Shown: in pieces, positions 1-10,670 of the stretch
Layout: every line of letters starts with the position of its first letter
Numbering within the stretch: position 1 is the first letter of the stretch
Assembly: GCA_023254645.1 (NCBI GenBank)
Contig: JALRLA010000102.1
Location: forward strand, 1-10,670
Reading direction: 5' to 3'
From: Bacteroidia bacterium
GTDB taxonomy: Bacteria > Bacteroidota > Bacteroidia > NS11-12g > UBA955
Length of the DNA: 10,670 nucleotides
Position numbers and translations under genes: made by a program
Notes under the pieces: generated by a model
The model's input: the letters and a program-made list of their open reading frames with translations, nothing else
What the model was told of the DNA's origin: nothing
Database searches by the model: none

Positions 1-1340
1 CGGCTTACATACGCACTTGGTACTTTGGCCCTGGAGACAGCGCGACCATCCCTACGCCAACGCGCACGTATCCCGCGCCGGGTAAGTACCGTATCATTTA
101 CAAGAGCGAGACTTTGTATGACAACAAACGCACGGGTTGTACGGATACAACTTCCATGTATGTGCGAGTGATTCCTGATCCTTCGTCTGGTATTTCCATT
201 AACGATTCGATTCAGTGTTTCAAATCAAACAGCTTTGTGTTTGACAATGTGTTCCCCGGTTTGAACTCCTTTAGTTGGGACTTGGGCGATGGTACTACCT
301 CAACCGCCAAAAAAGTAACCCATTCTTACGCGGCTGTAGGCGTTTATTCCATTATACATGCGGCGGCAAGTCCTGAAGGATGCAGTTCGATTGATACGGT
401 TTTTGTGTTGGTCAAGCGCAATGTAGATCCCAGTTTTTCTGGATTGCCTGCAACCTTGTGTTTGGATGACCCGGCCATTACCCTAATTCCGGCAGAGACC
501 ACCAATGGTGTGTTTTATGGCAATACATTCAATGGCTTTGACTTTTCTCCAACCGTAGCAGGATTGCAGAAAATCAAATACGTCATCAAGGATTCATTCT
601 GTCCTGATTCAAGCACCCAGAACATCACAATTTCTCCTCTTCCCAAATTCTCTTTGGGAAAGGATAGTTCTGTATGCGATGGGAAGTCTATGACTCTGTA
701 TGCGGGAGCGACAGGAACGGTGACTTGGGATGACGCCTCAGTAGGTTCTTCGCGTTCTGTGAACAAGGGTGGTACCTATTGGGCAGAAGTGAACAACAAC
801 GGATGCAAATGGAGAGATTCCATATCGATCTATGAAGGAACTTCTCCTCAGGTCAAGTTGCCCGAAGATACCCTTATTTGTCAAGGAGCCATGTTGCAAT
901 TGAAGGCCAGTTGGCCTGGTGCTAAGGTTCAATGGAACAACGGTAGTACTGACTCCGTCATCTACGTGAGTACAAGTGGATTCTACCAAGCGACGTTGAC
1001 CAACCCTTGTGGGTCTGCTTCTGACGGCGTTCAGGTGACCATTAAAGGCGGTTTGTGTGATGCCTTCATTCCTACCGCCTTTACGCCAAATGGTGACGGT
1101 AGAAATGAAACCTTTACCATCACGGGTCGCGGAGTTACTCCGACCTATTTAATCATTTACAACCGCTGGGGTGAGAAGGTGTTCGATAGCAATGACAATG
1201 GTAGCTTCGAGTGGGACGGTAACTCAAAGGGAGAGCCTTGTATGGAAGGATTCTATCAGTTCTTGTTCCGCTACGACATCATTACAGGTGATTTGAAGCG
1301 CAAGAACACCATCAAAGGCAATGTCTATTTGATGCGTTAA
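1..1340 (+). CDS. T9SS type B-sorted surface protein with PKD and Ig-like repeats (C-terminal part; 5' end outside window)
   Basis: The reading frame starting at base 3 is open to the left edge, so the gene starts outside the window; 445 residues are visible. A TTG at 114 could be called as a start, but the residues before it (WYFGPGDS, then PTRTYPAPGKY) are the second half of a PKD-type domain, so it is internal. A further PKD domain follows at about 85-137 (SWDLGDG, then HSYAAVGVY). A Cys-containing beta domain covers about 143-210. Two similar Ig-like repeats lie at about 212-276 and 282-347, each with a C-x-G motif near its start and G-x-Y plus a Cys near its end. The CHU_C/gliding-motility-associated domain closes the protein (about 352-445: FIPTAFTPNGDG, IYNRWGEKVF, WDG, GFYQF). 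In this family that domain directs export by the type IX secretion system. By inference it is an adhesin or matrix protein displayed on or released from the cell; its ligand is unknown. Confidence 0.9.
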   Translation, partial: AYIRTWYFGPGDSATIPTPTRTYPAPGKYRIIYKSETLYDNKRTGCTDTTSMYVRVIPDPSSGISINDSIQCFKSNSFVFDNVFPGLNSFSWDLGDGTTSTAKKVTHSYAAVGVYSIIHAAASPEGCSSIDTVFVLVKRNVDPSFSGLPATLCLDDPAITLIPAETTNGVFYGNTFNGFDFSPTVAGLQKIKYVIKDSFCPDSSTQNITISPLPKFSLGKDSSVCDGKSMTLYAGATGTVTWDDASVGSSRSVNKGGTYWAEVNNNGCKWRDSISIYEGTSPQVKLPEDTLICQGAMLQLKASWPGAKVQWNNGSTDSVIYVSTSGFYQATLTNPCGSASDGVQVTIKGGLCDAFIPTAFTPNGDGRNETFTITGRGVTPTYLIIYNRWGEKVFDSNDNGSFEWDGNSKGEPCMEGFYQFLFRYDIITGDLKRKNTIKGNVYLMR

Positions 1341-1352
1341 ACGCATGCAAAT
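1327..1352 (+). terminator. Hairpin spanning the stop codon, possible terminator
   Basis: The left arm ATTTGATGCGT (1327-1337) pairs with ACGCAT (1341-1346) and CAAAT (1348-1352), with one bulged G at 1347. The 3-nt loop is TAA, the stop codon of the upstream gene. The 11-bp stem is well formed but has no T-run after it, so it is not a classic Rho-independent terminator. It could slow transcription, protect the mRNA 3' end, or help separate the surface-protein gene from purL. Confidence 0.4.
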
Positions 1353-1376
1353 TGGGGCATAAACTGTCCAAAACTA

Positions 1377-1409
1377 TTTCCTTCCTGCTTATTCGTCGTT
1401 GTACCTTTG
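1377..1409 (+). promoter_or_regulatory. Bacteroidota-type promoter for purL
   Basis: TACCTTTG at 1402-1409 is an exact match to the Bacteroidota -7 consensus TAnnTTTG. A weak -33 candidate, TTTC (1377-1380, 3 of 4 bases of TTTG), lies 21 bp upstream. The ATG of purL at 1416 starts only 7 nt after the box ends, so transcription would begin at or next to the start codon and give a leaderless or nearly leaderless mRNA. The box is directly visible; the leaderless transcript is inferred. Confidence 0.6.
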
Positions 1410-1415
1410 TGGCTC

Positions 1416-3641
1416 ATGCAACAGGAATTGGCAACCGTAGACCAAGCTCAGCAGTTGGGCTTGTTGGCTGAAGAATTTGATCAAATCTGCTCCATTTTGG
1501 GTCGCACCCCGAACTTCACTGAATTGTCGATCTATTCGGTCATGTGGAGCGAGCATTGCAGCTACAAGAATTCGATTACTTGGTTGAAGACTTTGCCCAA
1601 AGAAGGCAGTCGTATGCTGGCCATGGCCGGTGAGGAAAATGCCGGTTTGGTCGACATTGGAGATGGCCTAGCTTGTTGCTTCAAAATTGAGAGTCACAAC
1701 CATCCGTCGGCCATTGAGCCTTACCAAGGGGCAGCGACCGGTGTAGGTGGTATCAACCGCGATATTTTCTCTATGGGTGCACGACCCATTGCTCAGTTGA
1801 ACTCCTTGCGTTTCGGCAACATTGATACGGCTCGAACCCAGTGGCTGGTCAAAGGGGTTGTCAAGGGGATTGGCGATTACGGAAATGCCTTTGGCATTCC
1901 CACCGTCGGTGGTGAAGTTTACTTTGACGACTGTTACGAGCAGAACATTCTGGTGAATGCCATGAGTGCGGGTATTGTCGAAGTGGGTAAGAGCATTTCG
2001 GCTGCTGCAGGTCCTGCTGGAAACCCCGTGTACATTTTTGGCTCAGCTACAGGGAAAGACGGAATTCACGGTGCCGCGTTCGCCTCAAAAGACATGAGCG
2101 AAGACTCCATCAATGACCTTCCTTCGGTCCAAGTGGGTGACCCCTTCTGGGAGAAGCTGATTTTGGAAGCCAGTTTGGAAATCATTGAAACTGGTTCGGT
2201 TGTGGGTATGCAAGACATGGGTGCAGCGGGCATTACCTGCTCCACCAGTGAAATGAGCGCCAAAAGCGATGTCGGAATGGACATTTGGTTGGACAAGGTT
2301 CCCATGCGCCAATCGGACATGAAAGGATGGGAGCTGTTGTTGTCAGAGAGTCAAGAGCGCATGCTGGTCATCGTTCAAAAGGGCCAAGAGGCTGCCGTTG
2401 AGCGAATTTTTGAAAAATGGGATTTGACCTATGCCCAAATTGGGGTTGTAACCGATACCAAGCGGGTTCGCTATTACATGGGAGAGGATTTGGAAGCTGA
2501 TATTCCCGCTGAGTCTTTGGTATTGGGTGGAGGAGCTCCTGTATACAAGCGCAGCTGGACCGAGCCTGCTTACTTTGAGAAAATCAAGGCTTTCCAACTG
2601 GATACGGTTGCCGATTTGACTTTGGATCAAGCCAAAGAAACGGCTCGAAAAATCGTAGCTCTCCCCAACATTGCCTCCAAGCGTTGGGTATACAATCAAT
2701 ACGATTCCATGGTGGGTACGGTGAACGAAACCACCAATTTGCCTTCAGATGCGGCGATTGCCAAAGTCAAAGGCACGCAAAAGAGTTTGGCGTTGACCGT
2801 TGATTGCAATAGCCGTTATATCTACGCTGATCCCGATAAAGGAACTCAGATTGCGGTGGCCGAAGCCGCTCGCAACATTCGCTGCAGCGGTGCGGTGCCA
2901 ACCGCCATATCCAACTGTTTGAACTTTGGAAATCCCTACAACGAAGAGGTGTACTATCAGTTCAAGCATGCCATCGATGGAATGGGCAAAGCCTGCCGCA
3001 AGTTCGACACTCCTGTTACGGGAGGAAACGTCAGTTTCTATAACCAGAGCAGCAATGGCCAATCTGTGTATCCCACACCTACCATTGCCATGTTGGGATT
3101 GTTGGAACACGAATCCAAGCGATTAAGTTTGAATTTCAAGCAAAAAGGAGATCCCATAGTACTGTTGGGTAAGCCTGAGAATGACCTGGGTTCTTCTCAA
3201 TATTTGGCAAAAATCTGTGGGGTAGAGTATTCTCCCTGTCCCGCTTTTGATTTGGATACCGAGTACACCTTGCACGAGTTGTTGGGCGAATTGGCTGGAC
3301 GTGAGTCCATTCAATCGGTGCACGATATCAGTGAAGGGGGTGTATTTGTAGCGGCATTTGAATCAGCCCTGGCCGGTGGTTTGGGATTTGACATCTGCAG
3401 CCAGCAAGAGGTTCGACTCGACGCTTGGTTGTACGGTGAGTCTCAAAGCCGCGTTCTCGTATCGTGTAAACCCGAGGGTCTCGAGGCTTTGTTGGCCCTT
3501 GCCGCTAAGCACGGTGTACCTGCTCTTCAAATTGGAACAGTAACGGGTCCGAGTGTAACGGTCAATGGCAGCGATTGGGGCAGCATGGCCGAATTTGAAT
3601 CGGGGTATACCCAAGCATTGCCCTCGCGCTTGAATGCCTAA
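1416..3641 (+). CDS. purL: Phosphoribosylformylglycinamidine synthase, small-type PurL subunit
   Basis: PurL catalyses the ATP-dependent conversion of FGAR to FGAM in de novo purine synthesis, in the cytoplasm. At 741 residues this is the small form, which in other bacteria works with PurQ (glutaminase) and PurS. Visible family motifs are WSEHCSYK (44-51, the conserved His region), IESHNHPS followed by EPYQGAATGVGGINRDI (91-117), VGGEVYFD, QDMGAAGITCSTSEMS, LSESQERML, ISNCLNFGNP, TGGNVSFYNQ and VHDISEGGV, in the order expected for the two AIRS-type halves. I chose ATG 1416 because the upstream in-frame TTG (1407) lies inside the predicted promoter box. No Shine-Dalgarno sequence is visible. 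The stop codon overlaps the next gene, so the two are probably cotranscribed. Neither purQ nor purS is in the window. From memory, many Bacteroidota have the long PurL with a fused glutaminase, so the short form is notable. Confidence 0.95.
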   Translation: MQQELATVDQAQQLGLLAEEFDQICSILGRTPNFTELSIYSVMWSEHCSYKNSITWLKTLPKEGSRMLAMAGEENAGLVDIGDGLACCFKIESHNHPSAIEPYQGAATGVGGINRDIFSMGARPIAQLNSLRFGNIDTARTQWLVKGVVKGIGDYGNAFGIPTVGGEVYFDDCYEQNILVNAMSAGIVEVGKSISAAAGPAGNPVYIFGSATGKDGIHGAAFASKDMSEDSINDLPSVQVGDPFWEKLILEASLEIIETGSVVGMQDMGAAGITCSTSEMSAKSDVGMDIWLDKVPMRQSDMKGWELLLSESQERMLVIVQKGQEAAVERIFEKWDLTYAQIGVVTDTKRVRYYMGEDLEADIPAESLVLGGGAPVYKRSWTEPAYFEKIKAFQLDTVADLTLDQAKETARKIVALPNIASKRWVYNQYDSMVGTVNETTNLPSDAAIAKVKGTQKSLALTVDCNSRYIYADPDKGTQIAVAEAARNIRCSGAVPTAISNCLNFGNPYNEEVYYQFKHAIDGMGKACRKFDTPVTGGNVSFYNQSSNGQSVYPTPTIAMLGLLEHESKRLSLNFKQKGDPIVLLGKPENDLGSSQYLAKICGVEYSPCPAFDLDTEYTLHELLGELAGRESIQSVHDISEGGVFVAAFESALAGGLGFDICSQQEVRLDAWLYGESQSRVLVSCKPEGLEALLALAAKHGVPALQIGTVTGPSVTVNGSDWGSMAEFESGYTQALPSRLNA

Positions 3642-4779
3642 GAATTTTCAATCTCTGCCCCCGTCTGAGCCCAGTTTTTGGGTAAAAAGACACTTGGAAC
3701 GGGCAGACATTGTCATCGTTGGAGGAGGCTTGGTGGGCCTGTTGACTTCCATTCGTCTCAAAGAGAAGTTTCCCAAGCGCGAAGTTTGGGTGCTGGATCA
3801 ATCTCCGTTTTTATGGTCAGCCAGCTGGCGCAATGCCGGTTTTGCATGCTATGGCTCGGCAGGAGAATTGATCGATGAGGCCCGTCGAAGCAGCCGCAGC
3901 CAGGCCCTTGAGTTGTACCGCCGCCGTTTTGAAGGGCTGGTCAGCCTACGCGAGGAATTCGGCGATGCCGCTTTGGGCTTTGAGGCATCTGGCGGATGGG
4001 AACTTTTCCAAACGGAAGCAGAAGCACAGTCAGTCATTCAGACTTTGGATGAGTGGAACCAGGATTTGAAATCGGTTTCTGGAATCTCTCCCTTCCAGAT
4101 TCGCTCCAGTCAATCACTGGGCATGCGCATTGCCTCCCAAGCCATATTCGCTTCCCAAGAAGGGGCCATACAATCGCATTTGCTGCTGCGTTCGGTTCGA
4201 AACAAAGCCTTGTCGCTGGGTGTTGAATGTTACGAAGGGCAAGCGGTTAGTCATTTGGAGCCCACAGAATCCCAATCTTGGATGCTAGAATTGGAATCGG
4301 GTTTGTCCTTGAAAGCGCGTGAATTGGTCTTGTGTACCAATGCGTATACCCGCTTGCTCCAAGAAGAGGTAGACCTCAAACCCGCCAGAGGCCAGATACT
4401 CGTGACCTCGGCCATGCCCGAGTTGCCCTTTCGCGGCATTTTTCACGCTGATCAGGGTTATTTGTATGCCCGTACATTGGGCACGCGCTTGCTTCTAGGT
4501 GGGGGGAGAAATTTGGATTTTGCCGAAGAAGAAACCCTGCATTCCGAAGAAAATACCGCGATCAGGAATCATTTGTTGAACTACTTGAAAGAGGTTTTGG
4601 TTCCCGGTCAGGAGTTTAGCATTCAAGAGCAATGGTCGGGAATTATGGCCATGGGTGAATCCCGTGAGCCCATTGTGAAACAATCAGCCCCAGGATTTTA
4701 CTTGGCTGTTCGAATGGGCGGTATGGGGGTTGCCTTGAGTTCTGAGGTGGCACAAGGTGTGAGCCGTTTGCTCAGCTAA
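3634..4779 (+). CDS. DAO-family FAD-dependent oxidoreductase
   Basis: The protein has 381 residues. Near the N-terminus is a Rossmann FAD-binding fold: hydrophobic strand DIVIVGGGLVG (25-35) with the G-x-G-x-x-G pattern, then VWVLDQ (51-56), where the Asp would bind the adenosine ribose. SASWRNAGF (62-70) is typical of D-amino-acid/glycine-oxidase-like flavoproteins. Downstream are a CTNAYTR segment, PARGQILVT, GYLYAR and the C-terminal FAD-contact stretch GFYLAVRMGGMGVAL. The family oxidises C-N bonds of amino acids or amines; nothing here fixes the substrate. The start ATG overlaps the purL stop by 8 bp (ATGCCTAA), which fits translational coupling by terminating ribosomes, and no Shine-Dalgarno is visible. 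About 24 residues precede the first beta strand, so a later start is conceivable, but the overlap supports this one. There is no signal peptide, so it is probably cytoplasmic. Confidence 0.85.
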   Translation: MPKNFQSLPPSEPSFWVKRHLERADIVIVGGGLVGLLTSIRLKEKFPKREVWVLDQSPFLWSASWRNAGFACYGSAGELIDEARRSSRSQALELYRRRFEGLVSLREEFGDAALGFEASGGWELFQTEAEAQSVIQTLDEWNQDLKSVSGISPFQIRSSQSLGMRIASQAIFASQEGAIQSHLLLRSVRNKALSLGVECYEGQAVSHLEPTESQSWMLELESGLSLKARELVLCTNAYTRLLQEEVDLKPARGQILVTSAMPELPFRGIFHADQGYLYARTLGTRLLLGGGRNLDFAEEETLHSEENTAIRNHLLNYLKEVLVPGQEFSIQEQWSGIMAMGESREPIVKQSAPGFYLAVRMGGMGVALSSEVAQGVSRLLS

Positions 4780-4798
4780 GGTTCAAAAAGTACATTCG
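4767..4798 (+). promoter_or_regulatory. Possible internal promoter before the secreted-protein gene
   Basis: TTTG (4767-4770, inside the end of the flavoprotein gene), a 20-bp spacer and TACATTCG (4791-4798, one mismatch to TAnnTTTG) match the -33/-7 layout of Bacteroidota promoters. The ATG of the next gene is at 4803, only 5 nt past the box, so transcripts would again be almost leaderless. The one mismatch makes this weaker than the purL box. Confidence 0.42.
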
Positions 4799-4802
4799 CA
4801 AC

Positions 4803-5324
4803 ATGCGCCTTTTGACGTTTTTGGCAATCGCATGTATCGCGGGACCCCTTTGGGCCCAAGTGGAGGAACAAGCCGACTTGGAATTCGATGTCGAAGGTTC
4901 AAAAGTTGAAGTTGAAATTGGCTGTGGCGATACAGCTATCATTGGGGTATCAAGTTTGGGGAAGGGGGCCGAATTTGCGCACATCGATGCTATTCGAAAA
5001 ACCCGCTGGCCCGATCTGCCTCTGCCGTACGATACGGCAACAGGGATGGGTTTGTATGCCAGTTTCTTTGGAAGTGGAGATTTTAATTTGGCCAAATTAC
5101 CGGCTTCCTATGCTGGACAGGCTTTGGTGATTTTAGGTACCGACAGGGTCCCCTTAAAAAGCAAAAATTCAGATGGATCTACCCCCTGGGCTGAGGTTCT
5201 CTTTTTGAAAGCCGACATTCCTAACACCGTTTTTTGGGTCGATTTTGATGCGGCTGTTTCATCTGGAGAAATCCAAGAATTCAGAGCCAATTGGTCTCTA
5301 CGGGAGGAGGATTCCCAGCCATGA
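4803..5324 (+). CDS. Small secreted or periplasmic protein of unknown function
   Basis: I do not recognise this 173-residue protein. It begins with a clear Sec signal peptide: MR, a hydrophobic core (LLTFLAIACIAG) and LWA-Q, giving a likely cleavage after residue 18. There is no Cys at the +1 position, so it is not a lipoprotein. The mature part begins acidic (VEEQADLEFDVEGSKVEVEIG), holds one Cys (about 40) and alternates short hydrophobic and polar stretches, which suggests a small beta-rich domain. No transmembrane segment or T9SS sorting tail is seen. It starts 23 bp after the flavoprotein gene and its TGA overlaps the next gene's ATG (ATGA), so it is probably in the same transcript, perhaps boosted by the internal promoter. 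The shared operon with polX does not by itself imply a shared function, because this product is exported. Coding status is supported by its signal peptide and tight packing. Confidence 0.75.
   Translation: MRLLTFLAIACIAGPLWAQVEEQADLEFDVEGSKVEVEIGCGDTAIIGVSSLGKGAEFAHIDAIRKTRWPDLPLPYDTATGMGLYASFFGSGDFNLAKLPASYAGQALVILGTDRVPLKSKNSDGSTPWAEVLFLKADIPNTVFWVDFDAAVSSGEIQEFRANWSLREEDSQP
5302..5310 (+). promoter_or_regulatory. Strong Shine-Dalgarno-like sequence before the polX-like gene
   Basis: GGGAGGAGG contains a full AGGAGG core ending 10 nt before ATG 5321 (13 nt before ATG 5324). It lies within the coding sequence of the upstream gene, where it encodes Arg-Glu-Glu, so chance is possible. It stands out because no other start in the window has such a sequence, in line with the weak Shine-Dalgarno use known in Bacteroidota. 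It favours a start at 5321 or 5324 over the in-frame TTG at 5291. Confidence 0.45.
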
Positions 5325-6958
5325 TGGACAATGCTTCCATTCTAAGCCGCTTAAACTTGTATGCCAAGTTGGGCGAGTTGCACGATGAAAACCCTTTCAA
5401 ATTGCGGGCTTTTTCATCAGCGGCATTCAATTTAAAAAAAATCAAACAACCTTTTTCTGAAATGAAAGGAGAGGAGTTGTTGGCTTTGCCCGGTGTAGGC
5501 AAATCAGTGGTTCAAGCCATTCAAGAATTGTTGGAATTTCAAGACTTTCAGGCATTGAATGCCTTGGTCGAACGCACTCCTTCAGGAGTGTTGGGAATGT
5601 TGGGTCTAAAAGGCTTGGGCCCCAAAAAAGTCAAAGCCTTGTGGCAAGAACACGGAGTTGATTCTGTCGAGGAACTCTTGGATGCCTGTCGAGAAAATCG
5701 ATTGGTGGAGTGGTCGGGCTTTGGTTCCAAAACCCAGTCAGATTTGATCAAGGCCATAGAATTTCAAATGGCATCGGCGGGTCAAGTTCATTTTGCCCGT
5801 GCTTATTCGTTGGCGACCCAATGGTTGGAAAGTGCAAAGACCTTGGGAGGCAAACATGCTTGGACTGGCCCCTTGGCTCGTCATTGTGATACCTTGGAGC
5901 AATTGGATTTTATCAGCGACTGCAGCATTCGCTCACTCTTGGACAATGAGGCCTGGATCGTGAGTGAAGAGGCCAATGAATTTCGATGGGAAGACGAAAA
6001 CGGAGTACGCTACCGCCATCGAATAGTAGCCCCCGATCAATTTGATAGGGAGTTGTTTGAGAGCAGTTCGGAGGGATCCCATTTGCAGCAATTGGGTTAT
6101 GATTCCACCAAGTGGGCAGGCTCAGAAAGAGAGACTTATGAGCGTTTAGGGAAGAGCTATATCCCTGTTTGGCAACGCGAAGGGCGAGGAGAATTTGAAT
6201 ACCTTCAAGGTACTCCCATCACGTTTGAGCATTTGCGAGGAACTCTGCACAACCACACTCAATACAGCGACGGCTTGAATTCCCTTCAAGAAATGGCTCA
6301 AGCGACCCAAACCTTGGGTTTGGAGTACTTTGGAGTCTGCGATCACTCCAAAACGGCCGCCTATGCCGGCGGGCTGTCAGTCGAACGATTGCGTGCGCAA
6401 GGGGCCGAAGTGGATCGCTGGAACGCCCAGCCGGGTCATGTTCGCATTTTTAAAGGCATTGAAAGCGACATTTTGCTCGATGGTCAATTGGATTACGAAG
6501 ATGAAATATTGGCCGAGTTGGATTTTGTGGTGGCCTCCATTCACGCGGTGTTAAAGATGGATTTGGACCGAGCCATGCAGCGTTTGATTCGGGCCATTGA
6601 GAATCCATACACCACTATTTTGGGCCACATGACAGGTCGATTGTTGTTGATGCGCTCGGGCTATCCGGTAGATCATCACAAGATCATCGATGCCTGCGCC
6701 CACAATGGGGTGGCCATCGAGATCAATGCTCATCCCTATCGATTGGATATGGATTGGCGGTACATCGATTATGCCCAGAAGAAGGGTGTTTATTTGTCCA
6801 TCAACCCCGATGCCCATGAACAATCGGGTTTGAAAGATATGCATTGGGGCGTGCTGTCTGCAGCCAAAGGCGGATTGGTCAAAGAATTTACCTTGAATGC
6901 CTTGAGTTTGAATGAATTTTCGGCCTATCTCGAGGCCCAAAAATCAAAGCGCCCATGA
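5321..6958 (+). CDS. polX: PolX-like protein: HhH region, degenerate family X polymerase domain, intact PHP nuclease domain
   Basis: The protein has 545 residues, close to the usual length of bacterial PolX (about 570), which takes part in base-excision and gap repair. The N-terminal 8-kDa-like part carries helix-hairpin-helix motifs LPGVGKSVVQAI (56-67), LGLKGLGPKKVKAL (94-107) and WSGFGSKTQ (131-139). The nucleotidyltransferase core is colinear with the family but degraded. Where active members have G-S-x-R-R then G-D-x-D, this one has GPLARHCDTLEQLDFI (183-198); where they have D-L-R-x-V, it has RHRIV (232-236). At least two of the three metal-binding aspartates are therefore gone. The C-terminal PHP domain looks complete: HNHTQYSDG (310-318), CDHS (340-343), GIESDIL (379-385), ASIH (405-408), LGHMTGRLLL (434-443), EINAHP (467-472), NPDAH (495-499). 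I infer a DNA-binding PHP exonuclease or phosphatase without polymerase activity. The start ATG overlaps the previous stop (ATGA) behind a strong SD-like sequence. Confidence 0.88.
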   Translation: MMDNASILSRLNLYAKLGELHDENPFKLRAFSSAAFNLKKIKQPFSEMKGEELLALPGVGKSVVQAIQELLEFQDFQALNALVERTPSGVLGMLGLKGLGPKKVKALWQEHGVDSVEELLDACRENRLVEWSGFGSKTQSDLIKAIEFQMASAGQVHFARAYSLATQWLESAKTLGGKHAWTGPLARHCDTLEQLDFISDCSIRSLLDNEAWIVSEEANEFRWEDENGVRYRHRIVAPDQFDRELFESSSEGSHLQQLGYDSTKWAGSERETYERLGKSYIPVWQREGRGEFEYLQGTPITFEHLRGTLHNHTQYSDGLNSLQEMAQATQTLGLEYFGVCDHSKTAAYAGGLSVERLRAQGAEVDRWNAQPGHVRIFKGIESDILLDGQLDYEDEILAELDFVVASIHAVLKMDLDRAMQRLIRAIENPYTTILGHMTGRLLLMRSGYPVDHHKIIDACAHNGVAIEINAHPYRLDMDWRYIDYAQKKGVYLSINPDAHEQSGLKDMHWGVLSAAKGGLVKEFTLNALSLNEFSAYLEAQKSKRP

Positions 6959-7893
6959 AGATTCTGCTCATTCGATTTGGAGCCATTGGCGATCTGATCT
7001 TGGTTGAGCCGGTTTTGAGAATGCTGAATCAATCAGGTCATGAAGTTCATCTTCTGACCAAACGTGCGCATGCTTCCATGTTTGAGAATCATGAGTCTGT
7101 GCATGCCGTTTACATTTGGGAGTCGACGGGCATAATTGGAGAACTTCGCCAACAAGGCTTTGATGCAATTGTCGATGCCCACAACAACATTCGTTCTCAC
7201 TCAGTCTGCCTGGCACTATGGCCGGCGACGGTATACCGCATGCCCAAAGAAATTTGGAAAAAGCTACCTCTTCCTTCGCGCTTCAAGCAAGTGCGTTTGG
7301 TGAAGGATCGCTTGATGCAAACAGTTCGATCGCTAATAAGTGAACCACCCGTTGAATTGGGCCCGTGGCCCGGTATTGAACAATTACGCAAACCCAACAA
7401 TTATCGTGTGTGGGTGCTGGGTGGAACCTATGCGACCAAACAACTGCCCAACGAGATGGCCACTGCCCTGATGAATCAACTAGGAGGTCACTGGGTCTTG
7501 TTGGGAAGTGCTGGTGATGAAGGAAAAGCATTGGAAATCGCTAGGGGCTTGAATTCCAGTGTAAACGCCGAAATCTGCTGCTCTCAAGGGTTGAGAGAAT
7601 CAGCCTCGATTCTAGCGGGTGCAGCACAAGTGATTTCGGGCGATACGGGTATGGCTCATTGGGCAGCAGCGCTACACACCCCGCTTCACGTCATTTGGGG
7701 AAATACAACTCCGCAATTTGGACTGTCTCCAGGTCAATGGGGCGGTTCTGTGGTTCAGCATCACCAAGTTTCTGATTTGTCCTGCAGACCCTGTAGCAAA
7801 TTTGGCTATTCGCACTGTCCGAAAGGTCATTTCCATTGCATGCGAAACCAAAACCTCGATTCGATAGCAATAGCTATTAAAAATCTCGATTAG
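6955..7893 (+). CDS. Glycosyltransferase family 9 (ADP-heptose:LPS heptosyltransferase-like)
   Basis: The protein has 312 residues, a little short for the family (about 320-360). It opens with MKILLIRFGAIGDLIL, the GT9 hallmark, in which Asp13 corresponds to the catalytic Asp of WaaC/WaaF. The N-terminal Rossmann half runs to about residue 140. The second half has VWVLGGTYATKQLP (152-165, with a Lys at the usual donor-phosphate position), VLLGSAGDE (181-189) and SGDTGMAH (228-235), the conserved D-T-G-x-x-H nucleotide-sugar site. A Cys-rich tail (C277, C280, C288, C295) is common in the family. It would act at the inner face of the cytoplasmic membrane, adding a sugar to the LPS core or another envelope glycan. 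Heptose itself cannot be assumed in Bacteroidota. The start ATG overlaps the polX stop (ATGA), so it is the last gene of the packed cluster. Confidence 0.88.
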   Translation: MKILLIRFGAIGDLILVEPVLRMLNQSGHEVHLLTKRAHASMFENHESVHAVYIWESTGIIGELRQQGFDAIVDAHNNIRSHSVCLALWPATVYRMPKEIWKKLPLPSRFKQVRLVKDRLMQTVRSLISEPPVELGPWPGIEQLRKPNNYRVWVLGGTYATKQLPNEMATALMNQLGGHWVLLGSAGDEGKALEIARGLNSSVNAEICCSQGLRESASILAGAAQVISGDTGMAHWAAALHTPLHVIWGNTTPQFGLSPGQWGGSVVQHHQVSDLSCRPCSKFGYSHCPKGHFHCMRNQNLDSIAIAIKNLD

Positions 7894-7969
7894 ACGCGAT
7901 TTACCGCCGTTTTGGAAGCATTTTTTGCTTATTTTCGCGACCCGTATTTATTCTGTCTGAACAACTCAA
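7894..7969 (+). promoter_or_regulatory. Intergenic region: weak hairpins and probable secDF promoter
   Basis: This is the only real gap inside the cluster, and secDF probably starts its own transcript here. A small hairpin spans 7881-7902 (AAATCtCG / CGcGATTT, one mismatch, 6-nt loop around the GT9 stop). A second, AAGCA-TTTTT-TGCTT, lies at 7916-7930 and is followed by ATTTT. Together they could form a weak terminator. TTTTTTG (7921-7927) could be a -33 element, with TATTTATT (7945-7952) 17 bp downstream as a poor -7 box (4 of 6 fixed TAnnTTTG positions). No Shine-Dalgarno precedes the ATG; the leader is A-rich instead. Confidence 0.35.
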
Positions 7970-10093
7970 ATGAAAACAAATAAATCCATTGTAGGTTTTT
8001 CCCTCGTGTTGGCTTTGGCCTGTTTGTATCAACTTTCCTTTACTTGGAAAGCGAGAAGCTTTGAATCTCAAGCTCATTCCTTTGCTCAAAAGCAAGCCAA
8101 ACTCGGGTTTTCCGAGAAAGAGATGTACCGTCGTTACATCGACAGCTTAGGCAACAAAGAGTTCTACAACTTGGGCATTGCCAATTACACATACTTTGAA
8201 TGCAAACAGCGTGAGGTGAACCTCGGTTTGGATTTGCGCGGCGGTATGAACGTCATTTTGGAAGTCGACAAAGGCGCCATTATCAAAGGATTGGCCAACG
8301 ACAACAAAGATGCCGGCTTGTTGAAAGCCATTGCCGCTACTGATGATATCATTCGCAACGAAGGAGGCGATTACGTTGAAGTGTTCATGGAGCAGTTTAA
8401 AAAGTCAAACGCCGATCGCAAAATTGCCTATGTGTTTGCCAAGGGAAACCGCGGTACCATCAAATCTTCATCTGGAGATGAGGAAGTAAAAAACATGCTA
8501 GAGGTAGAAACCGAGAGTGCCATCAACCGCGTTTACGAGGTAGTTGAAAAGCGTATCAACCAATCCAACGTGACTCAGCCAACCATTCAAAAGGTTGACG
8601 GGGGTCGAATTAGCGTTGAATTGCCTGGTGTTGACAACCCTCGTCGTATGGAAGATTTGGTCGAAAAAAGTGCCAAATTGGAGTTTTTTGAAGTCTACAG
8701 CAATTCTGCCACTAGCCAAGAGGCTGCTCGCATTTTGAACGATTTGTACAAAGCCTCTAAAATGGGCAATGTAGCGGCAGAAGAAGATACCACAGCTGAT
8801 GCAGGAATTGACACTGCTGCTGTGGCTGAAACCTCAGAAGACATGAGCACTGCTCCTTTGGCCAGCATACTCCGCTCTTATGGCAATGGCCAAGGTTCGG
8901 CCATGTGTGTGGTTAAGGCTGCCGATCGCGACCGCTTGGTCAAGATGTTGGCAGAGCCTCAATATCAATCTGTATTGGAGCCTGCTGTAAAGGTTGCCTT
9001 CAGTGCGAAGCCCACTGAATACGACGCCCAGGGCAAGGAAATCCAAAATTCTGACGAGTATTTGGTTTACTTCTTGAAGCGCGATCGCGATGGCAATGCT
9101 GCCCTTTCATCTGACGATGAAAACATCATCGCCGATGCTCGTGAGAATACCAACCAAACGGGTCAATTGGAAGTGAGCATGACCATGACTCCAACAGCAG
9201 CCTCTCGCTGGGCTCAGGTAACGGGTGCCAACGTAGGTAAATTCATTGCCATCGTTTTGGACGATCGTGTTTATTCAGCACCTGTTGTGAATGAGAAAAT
9301 TGGCGGTGGTCAATCTCAAATCAGTGGCAACTTTGACATTCGTGAAGCCCAAGATTTGGCCAACGTGTTGAAAGCGGGTAAACTGCCTGCTCCTGCTCGT
9401 ATCGTAGCGAGTGAAGTAGTGGGCCCATCTATGGGTGACGCTTCCATTCAGCGCGGTTTGAATTCCTTGCTGTTCGGTTTCTTGTCAACCGTTCTGTTCA
9501 TGATCTTGTATTACAACCGTGCCGGTTGGATCTCCATTGTAGCCGTATTGGGTAACGTATTCATCATTTTGGGTGTGTTGTCTTCATTGGGTGCTGCATT
9601 GACCTTGCCTGGTATGGCGGGTATCATCTTGACCGTAGGTATGGCGGTAGACGCCAACGTACTGATTTACGAGCGCATTAAAGATGAGTTGGGCGCAGGT
9701 AAGGGCTTGAAATCAGCCATCAACGATGGTTTCAAACATGCCTTGAGTGCGATCATTGACTCAAACATCACCACCTTGTTGGCTGGATTCTTGATGACCT
9801 TCGCTGGTGCGGGTCCTGTATACGGATTTGCCGTGATCTTGGTTATTGGTATTTTCTCTTCCTTGTTCACCGCACTGTTCATCACTCGTTTGTTGTTGGA
9901 CCGCCGTGCCGATGCTGGTAAAGAGACGGCTTTCGATACGTCTTGGAACCGCGGTTTCTTGAAAGGTGTAAACATTGATTTTGTCAGCAAGCGTCGCTAT
10001 TTCTATATCGGTTCTTTGACCTTCATCGCCTTGGGTGCCATTACCTTCTTCATGAAGGGTGGTATCAGCACAGGTATTGATTTCAAAGGAGGT
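7970..10093 (+). CDS. secDF: Protein translocase SecDF fusion, truncated 3' at a sequence junction
   Basis: SecDF is an inner-membrane, proton-driven partner of SecYEG that helps pull proteins into the periplasm. The native part here is 708 residues. It has TM1 (about 6-26), the LGLDLRGG motif (85-92), the periplasmic P1 domain with INRVYEVVEKRINQSNVTQP (185-204) and VELPGVDNP (216-224), and an acidic Ala/Thr-rich insert (about 268-298). Next come a second periplasmic part ending in GKFIAIVLDDRVYSAPVV (423-440) and LKAGKLPAPA (467-476), then five TM helices (about 493-642) with GMAVDANVLIYERIKDE (557-573), which carries the proton-path Asp. The SecF half begins at about 655, with TM1 (about 677-695) and GIDFKGG (702-708). 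Family members continue for roughly 280 more residues. Here the frame runs on to 10303, but that tail (MLARAAAEAVRRAS...) is not SecF; it is antisense to a foreign minus-strand reading frame. The fusion confirms a Bacteroidota-type gene, broken by the junction. Confidence 0.92.
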
Positions 10094-10105
10094 ATGTTGG
10101 CGCGG
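10094..10105. other. Breakpoint between Bacteroidota DNA and unrelated high-GC DNA
   Basis: SecF similarity stops after the codon ending at 10093 (D-F-K-G-G). By about 10100 the sequence is GC-rich and codes on the other strand. By hand count, GC is 23 of 60 bases at 9961-10020 and 45 of 60 at 10381-10440. I see no terminal inverted repeat, target duplication or integrase gene at the join. A chimeric assembly or amplification product is the simplest explanation; a real insertion into secDF is the alternative. Confidence 0.8.
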
Positions 10106-10670
10106 GCCGCCGCCGAGGCGGTGCGCAGGGCTTCCATAATGGCCGTTGCATTATCAGCGATCAGGTTGCGCATGACTTCGGCCGCGCGCACTTCGCCCAG
10201 CCGGCTCCGCAGCGCGTCGAATACAAAGCCAGCCCCGCGCCGGCCAATAGTGCCGACGATAGGGATAGCGCCGCCGACCAACGCCGAAGTGTCCAAATCC
10301 TGATCGGTTAGCGCACCGCCAATAACGCCTGCTGTGCCGCCGCCGGCGACACGCAAGGCCATGCGCCCGGCGCGGGAAGCCGCTACAGGCGCACCGCTTG
10401 CAATGGCCGCGCGTGCCCCCATACCGGGCGCGCGGACACCGACGCCGCCGGTCTGCACCGCGCGGCCGGTTTGCTGCGCCACGCGCGCGGCCCGCCGCGC
10501 TAACGTACCGGCTTGCGTGGCTTTTACCCCCATAGTGCCAAGGCGTGCCAGCCCTACACCGCTAACAGCGGTGGCGGGCGCGGTAAGGACGCCTTCGCCA
10601 ACGATCTGGCCGCCGGCAAAATAATTCCGGCGCTGCTGCTGCGCGGGGGCGCGCTCTTGTTCAACCGTCT
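10096..10670 (-). CDS. Ala/Gly-rich protein fragment from a high-GC source, possibly a phage internal virion protein
   Basis: The minus-strand frame is open from the right edge down to the junction, about 191 residues, with neither the true start nor the true stop visible. An ATG at 10533 is probably internal, because the same frame continues without a stop to 10670 (residues such as NYFAGGQIVGEG and TAVSGVGLARLG). The middle is rich in Ala, Arg, Gly and Val. A hydrophobic stretch (SALVGGAIPIVGTIG) could be a membrane-inserting helix, and after it comes RSRLGEVRAAEVMRNLIAD. From memory, an Ala-rich helical part followed by an R-A-A-x-x-x-R-x-x segment resembles large internal virion proteins of podovirus-like phages or prophages of Proteobacteria, but I cannot confirm this. 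Its composition and codon use differ sharply from every other gene in the window. The + strand frames over it are shadows. Confidence 0.5.

Follow-up and report, generated by a model that had tools for sequence, protein, structure and literature searches.

The window analysed here is the complete contig C217 (10,670 bases), which belongs to a draft genome of 424 contigs and 1.92 Mb with a completeness of 89.92% and a contamination of 0.79%. Judged by their respective relatives, bases 1-10094 are chromosome of an uncultured Bacteroidota bacterium, and bases 10095-10670 are unrelated phage DNA. The features are as follows:

within 1-7893: PKD protein with a type IX secretion signal (CHU_C), by family match
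within 1-7893: protein with AIR synthase and FGAR-AT linker domains (PurL type), by family match
within 1-7893: FAD-dependent oxidoreductase, by family match
within 1-7893: HHH and PHP domain protein, by family match
within 1-7893: family 9 glycosyltransferase, by family match
7970..10094, plus strand: 5' part of secDF, 708 codons that span SecD and the beginning of the SecF half, truncated at the join; NF009585 match and sister-species identity
10003..10094, minus strand: false antisense extension of the phage frame into secDF (open reading frame 10003-10668), lacking in P0001, L078 and L027
10094..10095, no strand: the join; base 10094 is the same in G002 but different in L078 and L027, and for base 10095 the reverse holds
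10095..10670, minus strand: internal stretch of a virion-cluster gene from a high-GC podophage, its frame running off the contig end; tblastn with L027-L032, P0001 and alignment
10095..10303, plus strand: false tail in the SecDF frame, residues 709-777 plus stop, running through phage DNA (open reading frame 7970-10303)

The stretch from 1 to 7893 holds ordinary Bacteroidota genes and is colinear throughout with G002, a sister-species genome; the HHH and PHP domain protein is presumably of the polymerase X type, and the 173-aa open reading frame at 4803-5324 lacks a Pfam match at E up to 1e-5. The nearest named relatives are two Bacteroidota metagenome-assembled genomes (JAQCBH010000005.1 and JAURGZ010000002.1). 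Colinearity with G002 extends in a gap-free alignment from base 1 to base 10094 (92.461% over 10094 columns) and stops at that single base, inside a gene, and the alignment with G001, a second sister species, has the same last base. The G001 comparison used positions 1-20000 of its contig C42, covers the window from about 3719 onward and comes in pieces (3719-4239, 4629-4752, 4903-6962 and 7630-10094); positions 6963-7629, in the glycosyltransferase gene, are unaligned as DNA.

Over its 708 residues the SecDF of the window is 98% identical in protein to that of G002 and 94% to that of G001, and both of these continue past codon 708, in open frames of 981 aa and 1006 aa respectively, and in each case another SecD/SecF-type match lies farther along. 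SecDF matches were present in 30/30 genomes examined, the genome under study included. Residues 1-708 align with the first 708 of the 993 positions of NF009585, the NCBIfam model for SecDF, and the match ends there, with a score of 719.9 bits vs a curated cut-off of 1037; up to residue 708 the protein is like the SecDF fusion protein, whereas the remaining 285 model positions are missing in the window, which does not hold full SecD and SecF halves in one frame. The sequence-only reading had placed an abrupt junction between secDF and foreign DNA within 10085..10110 and had SecDF cut after codon 708; the model match and the two alignments agree on codon 708, and the G002 alignment together with NF009585 sharpens the position to 10094/10095. 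The same reading had named SecDF homologues sharing the tail as evidence against any junction, and none were found: among 136 candidates (proteins of SecDF-like length), residues 709-777 had no homologue with E up to 1.

The rest of SecF, which that reading expected at the far side of a genuine insertion, was sought in the own assembly by two routes. A profile search with NF009585 returned the window and one weak match, to an RND-type region on contig C99, and a DNA search with 2420 bases of G002, starting ten bases before the end of codon 708 and extending over the SecF remainder and about 1.6 kb downstream, gave 48 matches, the longest of 45 bases and the best with E 7.7e-6. Neither the remainder nor its downstream region was found, a result that applies to contigs above 3 kb, and a shorter contig may carry the remainder. 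Ten contigs of the assembly carry matches, at 83-95%, to a stretch of about 35-45 bases downstream of secDF in G002 (L026:279-322), eight of them on both strands at the same place; this is a repeated palindromic element, perhaps terminator-like or an intergenic repeat.

Homology, coding strand and GC content all change at the join, as had been claimed from the sequence. GC is 0.693 in 10095-10670 vs 0.487 in 1-10094, and the frame with relatives past the join lies on the minus strand and is open from the contig end, while secDF is on the plus strand. This right edge, 576 bases reaching the contig end, encodes a 190-aa minus-strand fragment, for which a protein search returned two relatives with E up to 1 among 7998 candidates scored, namely P0001 (94% identity over 26% of the query), from a 941-bp contig, and P0002 (47% identity, 39% of the query). 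A second search with P0001 as query added P0003-P0006, and a search of IMG/VR with P0006 gave 43 loci. Six of the 43 (L027-L032) match the fragment in tblastn at 54.5% over 176 aa (E 9e-43 to 6e-35, calculated for the 43 loci only, best L032) and as DNA at 67-68% over about 360 bases. The fragment corresponds approximately to residues 103-272 of a 772-aa homologue in L027.

At the join, P0001 and L078 read ARANTAQFL and L027 reads KANTAEFL, and the window reads ARANIPPL, its frame turning into antisense SecDF after ARAN. The join thereby falls at about residue 272 of 772 in the L027 homologue and 293 of 811 in that of L078, and since the phage protein continues past this point in the relatives, both partners are cut in mid-gene, with the right part coming from an unrelated replicon. 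In the base-level comparison with G002, L078 and L027 the two partners have no bases in common at the join, an absence of overlap that is read from L078 and L027, whose identity to the fragment is about one half, and from the residues of P0001.

Other collections yielded little. IMG/VR searched with the fragment itself gave 28 pattern matches and with P0003 a single one, none confirmed in either case, and the GTDB genomes gave 290 pattern matches with the fragment, likewise none confirmed, in a search that finds close relatives only. Among public phage records, the fragment as protein matched 3 records (15% of the query, E 5) and as DNA 60, where the 20 matches listed cover at most 6% of the query with a best E of 0.01; P0003 matched none, and P0006 had 3 matches, confined to its C-terminal part, where it is a different protein. 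The fragment matched nothing in PHROGs, Pfam or NCBIfam with E up to 1, and P0001-P0006 gave weak matches only (PHROGs at E 0.03-0.67), no Pfam family being above its cut-off. Up to about residue 316, P0006 (405 aa) runs parallel to the phage protein; beyond that it is another protein, with a relative in Acinetobacter phage Ac42, and L034:20-397 matches its residues 283-405. P0006 may itself be chimeric, or it may reflect a genuine change of module. P0001 likewise departs from its relatives near its end. The N-terminal stretch of the 772-811 aa protein, beginning MPTLKQLE, recurs across loci, and in 35 of the 43 (L035-L069) the match to P0006 is confined to its first 128 residues, in many to the first 30-60, as a common N-terminal module would give.

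The surroundings of the homologues indicate what kind of gene was cut. The L027 sequence used spans 20.9 kb with a GC content of 0.634, and among the 10 of its 63 listed open reading frames that were scanned against PHROGs are:

scaffold protein, PHROG 8865 (5e-28)
coat protein, PHROG 283 (1e-73)
head-closure protein, PHROG 578 (3e-135)
DNA ejection protein, PHROG 598 (6e-44)
protein 'released from the phage upon host infection', PHROG 2534 (1e-13)

The gene for the 772-aa homologue (10001-12319) lies directly behind the PHROG 598 and PHROG 2534 genes, and after it come endolysin, helicase and DNA polymerase genes. L078 is 65% identical to P0001, and among the 5 of its 20 listed open reading frames scanned, an 811-aa homologue (1835-4270) comes directly after a PHROG 2534 gene. 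The homologue is thus inside the head, tail and ejection gene cluster of a phage in L027, and beside PHROG 2534 in L078. The ejection-protein cluster of P22-like phages consists of gp7, gp20 and gp16; L027 resembles the P22-like podophage arrangement in that the homologue follows ejection-type genes behind a coat and head-closure block, but the L027 and L078 homologues differ from it in having no PHROG family match (none at E up to 0.001). Because no family model matches, an ejection role of the homologue is indicated by position only, and it is from this position that we take it to be the third ejection protein of a P22-like podophage. The suggestion that the foreign DNA was perhaps phage is borne out by these relatives, which lie in IMG/VR phage contigs where the head and ejection genes are arranged in P22-like order: a phage origin of 10095-10670 is well supported, while a link between this phage and the Bacteroidota host is not.

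The own assembly served as yardstick for the change in composition. The GC survey sampled 103 of the 424 contigs, of which the 63 above 3 kb were read and the 40 below 3 kb left out (contigs under 3,000 bases made up 72,376 of the 486,146 bases sampled). In its last 500 bases C217 has a GC content 0.209 above that of its remaining sequence, while the 125 ends of the 63 contigs have a mean difference of -0.001 (sd 0.035, maximum +0.074, minimum -0.127), and none of 7678 windows of 500 bases in these contigs has a GC content of at least 0.65, the highest being 0.62. The GC step at the right end of C217 exceeds chance. No second GC-visible chimeric end was present among the 125 ends of the 63 contigs surveyed, and there is therefore no support for a generally faulty assembly. 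A search of the assembly with the fragment gave no further location for it (next best E 0.096).

We regard the right end of C217 as very probably a chimera of bacterium and phage and not a biological feature. That the contig is chimeric had been suspected from the sequence, and the suspicion is supported by the breakpoint in both partners, the position at a contig end and the GC outlier. Most likely, a chimeric molecule or read arose during library preparation or amplification, and the assembly followed it at a place where secDF was no longer covered; the two sources, the breakpoint and the contig-end position are shown, and the molecular cause and the low coverage are inferred. Since the partners, to judge from relatives, have no bases in common where they meet, it is unlikely that a k-mer present in both led to a purely computational join; an assembler working by shared k-mers would have required a read that bridges the two, and this suggests that a molecule or read was itself chimeric. 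As its cause, a ligation or PCR chimera from library preparation and multiple displacement amplification (MDA) are equally possible. That the chimera was made specifically by MDA of a single cell or low-input sample is a variant within the chimera reading to which we give a minor share: MDA generates chimeras, and with 424 contigs for 1.92 Mb this is a fragmented draft, but the two nearest named relatives are metagenome-assembled genomes.

A real insertion, that is, a high-GC phage or phage fragment inside secDF of living cells with the contig ending within it, is very improbable. The foreign DNA is indeed phage, and a contig that ended inside an insertion would show just one such edge; the failure to find the SecF remainder elsewhere in the assembly would also fit, though it is equally compatible with a chimera. 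Yet the join is not at a phage genome end or at an attachment site beside an integrase, as it cuts a virion-cluster gene mid-way, the GC difference is 0.2, and the SecDF frames of the nearest relatives run through the site. The L027 coat protein and the L078 DNA polymerase had no match in the own assembly, which also speaks against an inserted phage and applies to contigs above 3 kb, with the proviso that this search had no positive control and its empty answer by itself shows nothing. Loss of SecDF is, moreover, costly. Capture of a podophage piece by end joining into secDF in some cells, interrupting the gene, is scarcely to be expected either; if it were true, a core translocase gene of an uncultured Bacteroidota bacterium would be interrupted. 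That there is no junction and that a GC-rich, divergent SecDF tail is natural to this lineage is negligibly probable and was rejected: the frame does stay open to 10303, but the tail search found no match at E up to 1 for residues 709-777, the sister species (94-98% identity) continue in a different, shared sequence, as the G002 alignment and their frames show, and the opposite strand encodes a conserved phage protein.

With a chimera as the preferred reading, the 777-aa 'SecDF' and the open-ended 221-aa minus-strand frame, both of which a gene caller could predict, are artefacts. We agree with the earlier advice that nothing to the right of the join be assigned to the Bacteroidota host without proof; bases 10095-10670 should be set aside and taken neither as part of that genome nor as evidence linking phage and host. 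A phage piece on a bacterial contig could pass for a prophage or serve as a host assignment, and here it is most likely neither; the value of the C217 case is one of caution only.

Comparable contigs have been described. According to the GUNC paper (PMC8201837), misassembly leading to chimeric contigs is one of the two principal sources of error in metagenome-assembled genomes and relatively rare, and according to PMC8376068, chimeric reads from library preparation bridged chimeric contigs in RNA-virus assemblies. No material difference of C217 from such chimeric draft contigs was found, and it is like them in combining two unrelated sources, in the short foreign piece at its end and in a gene that is cut on both sides of the join.
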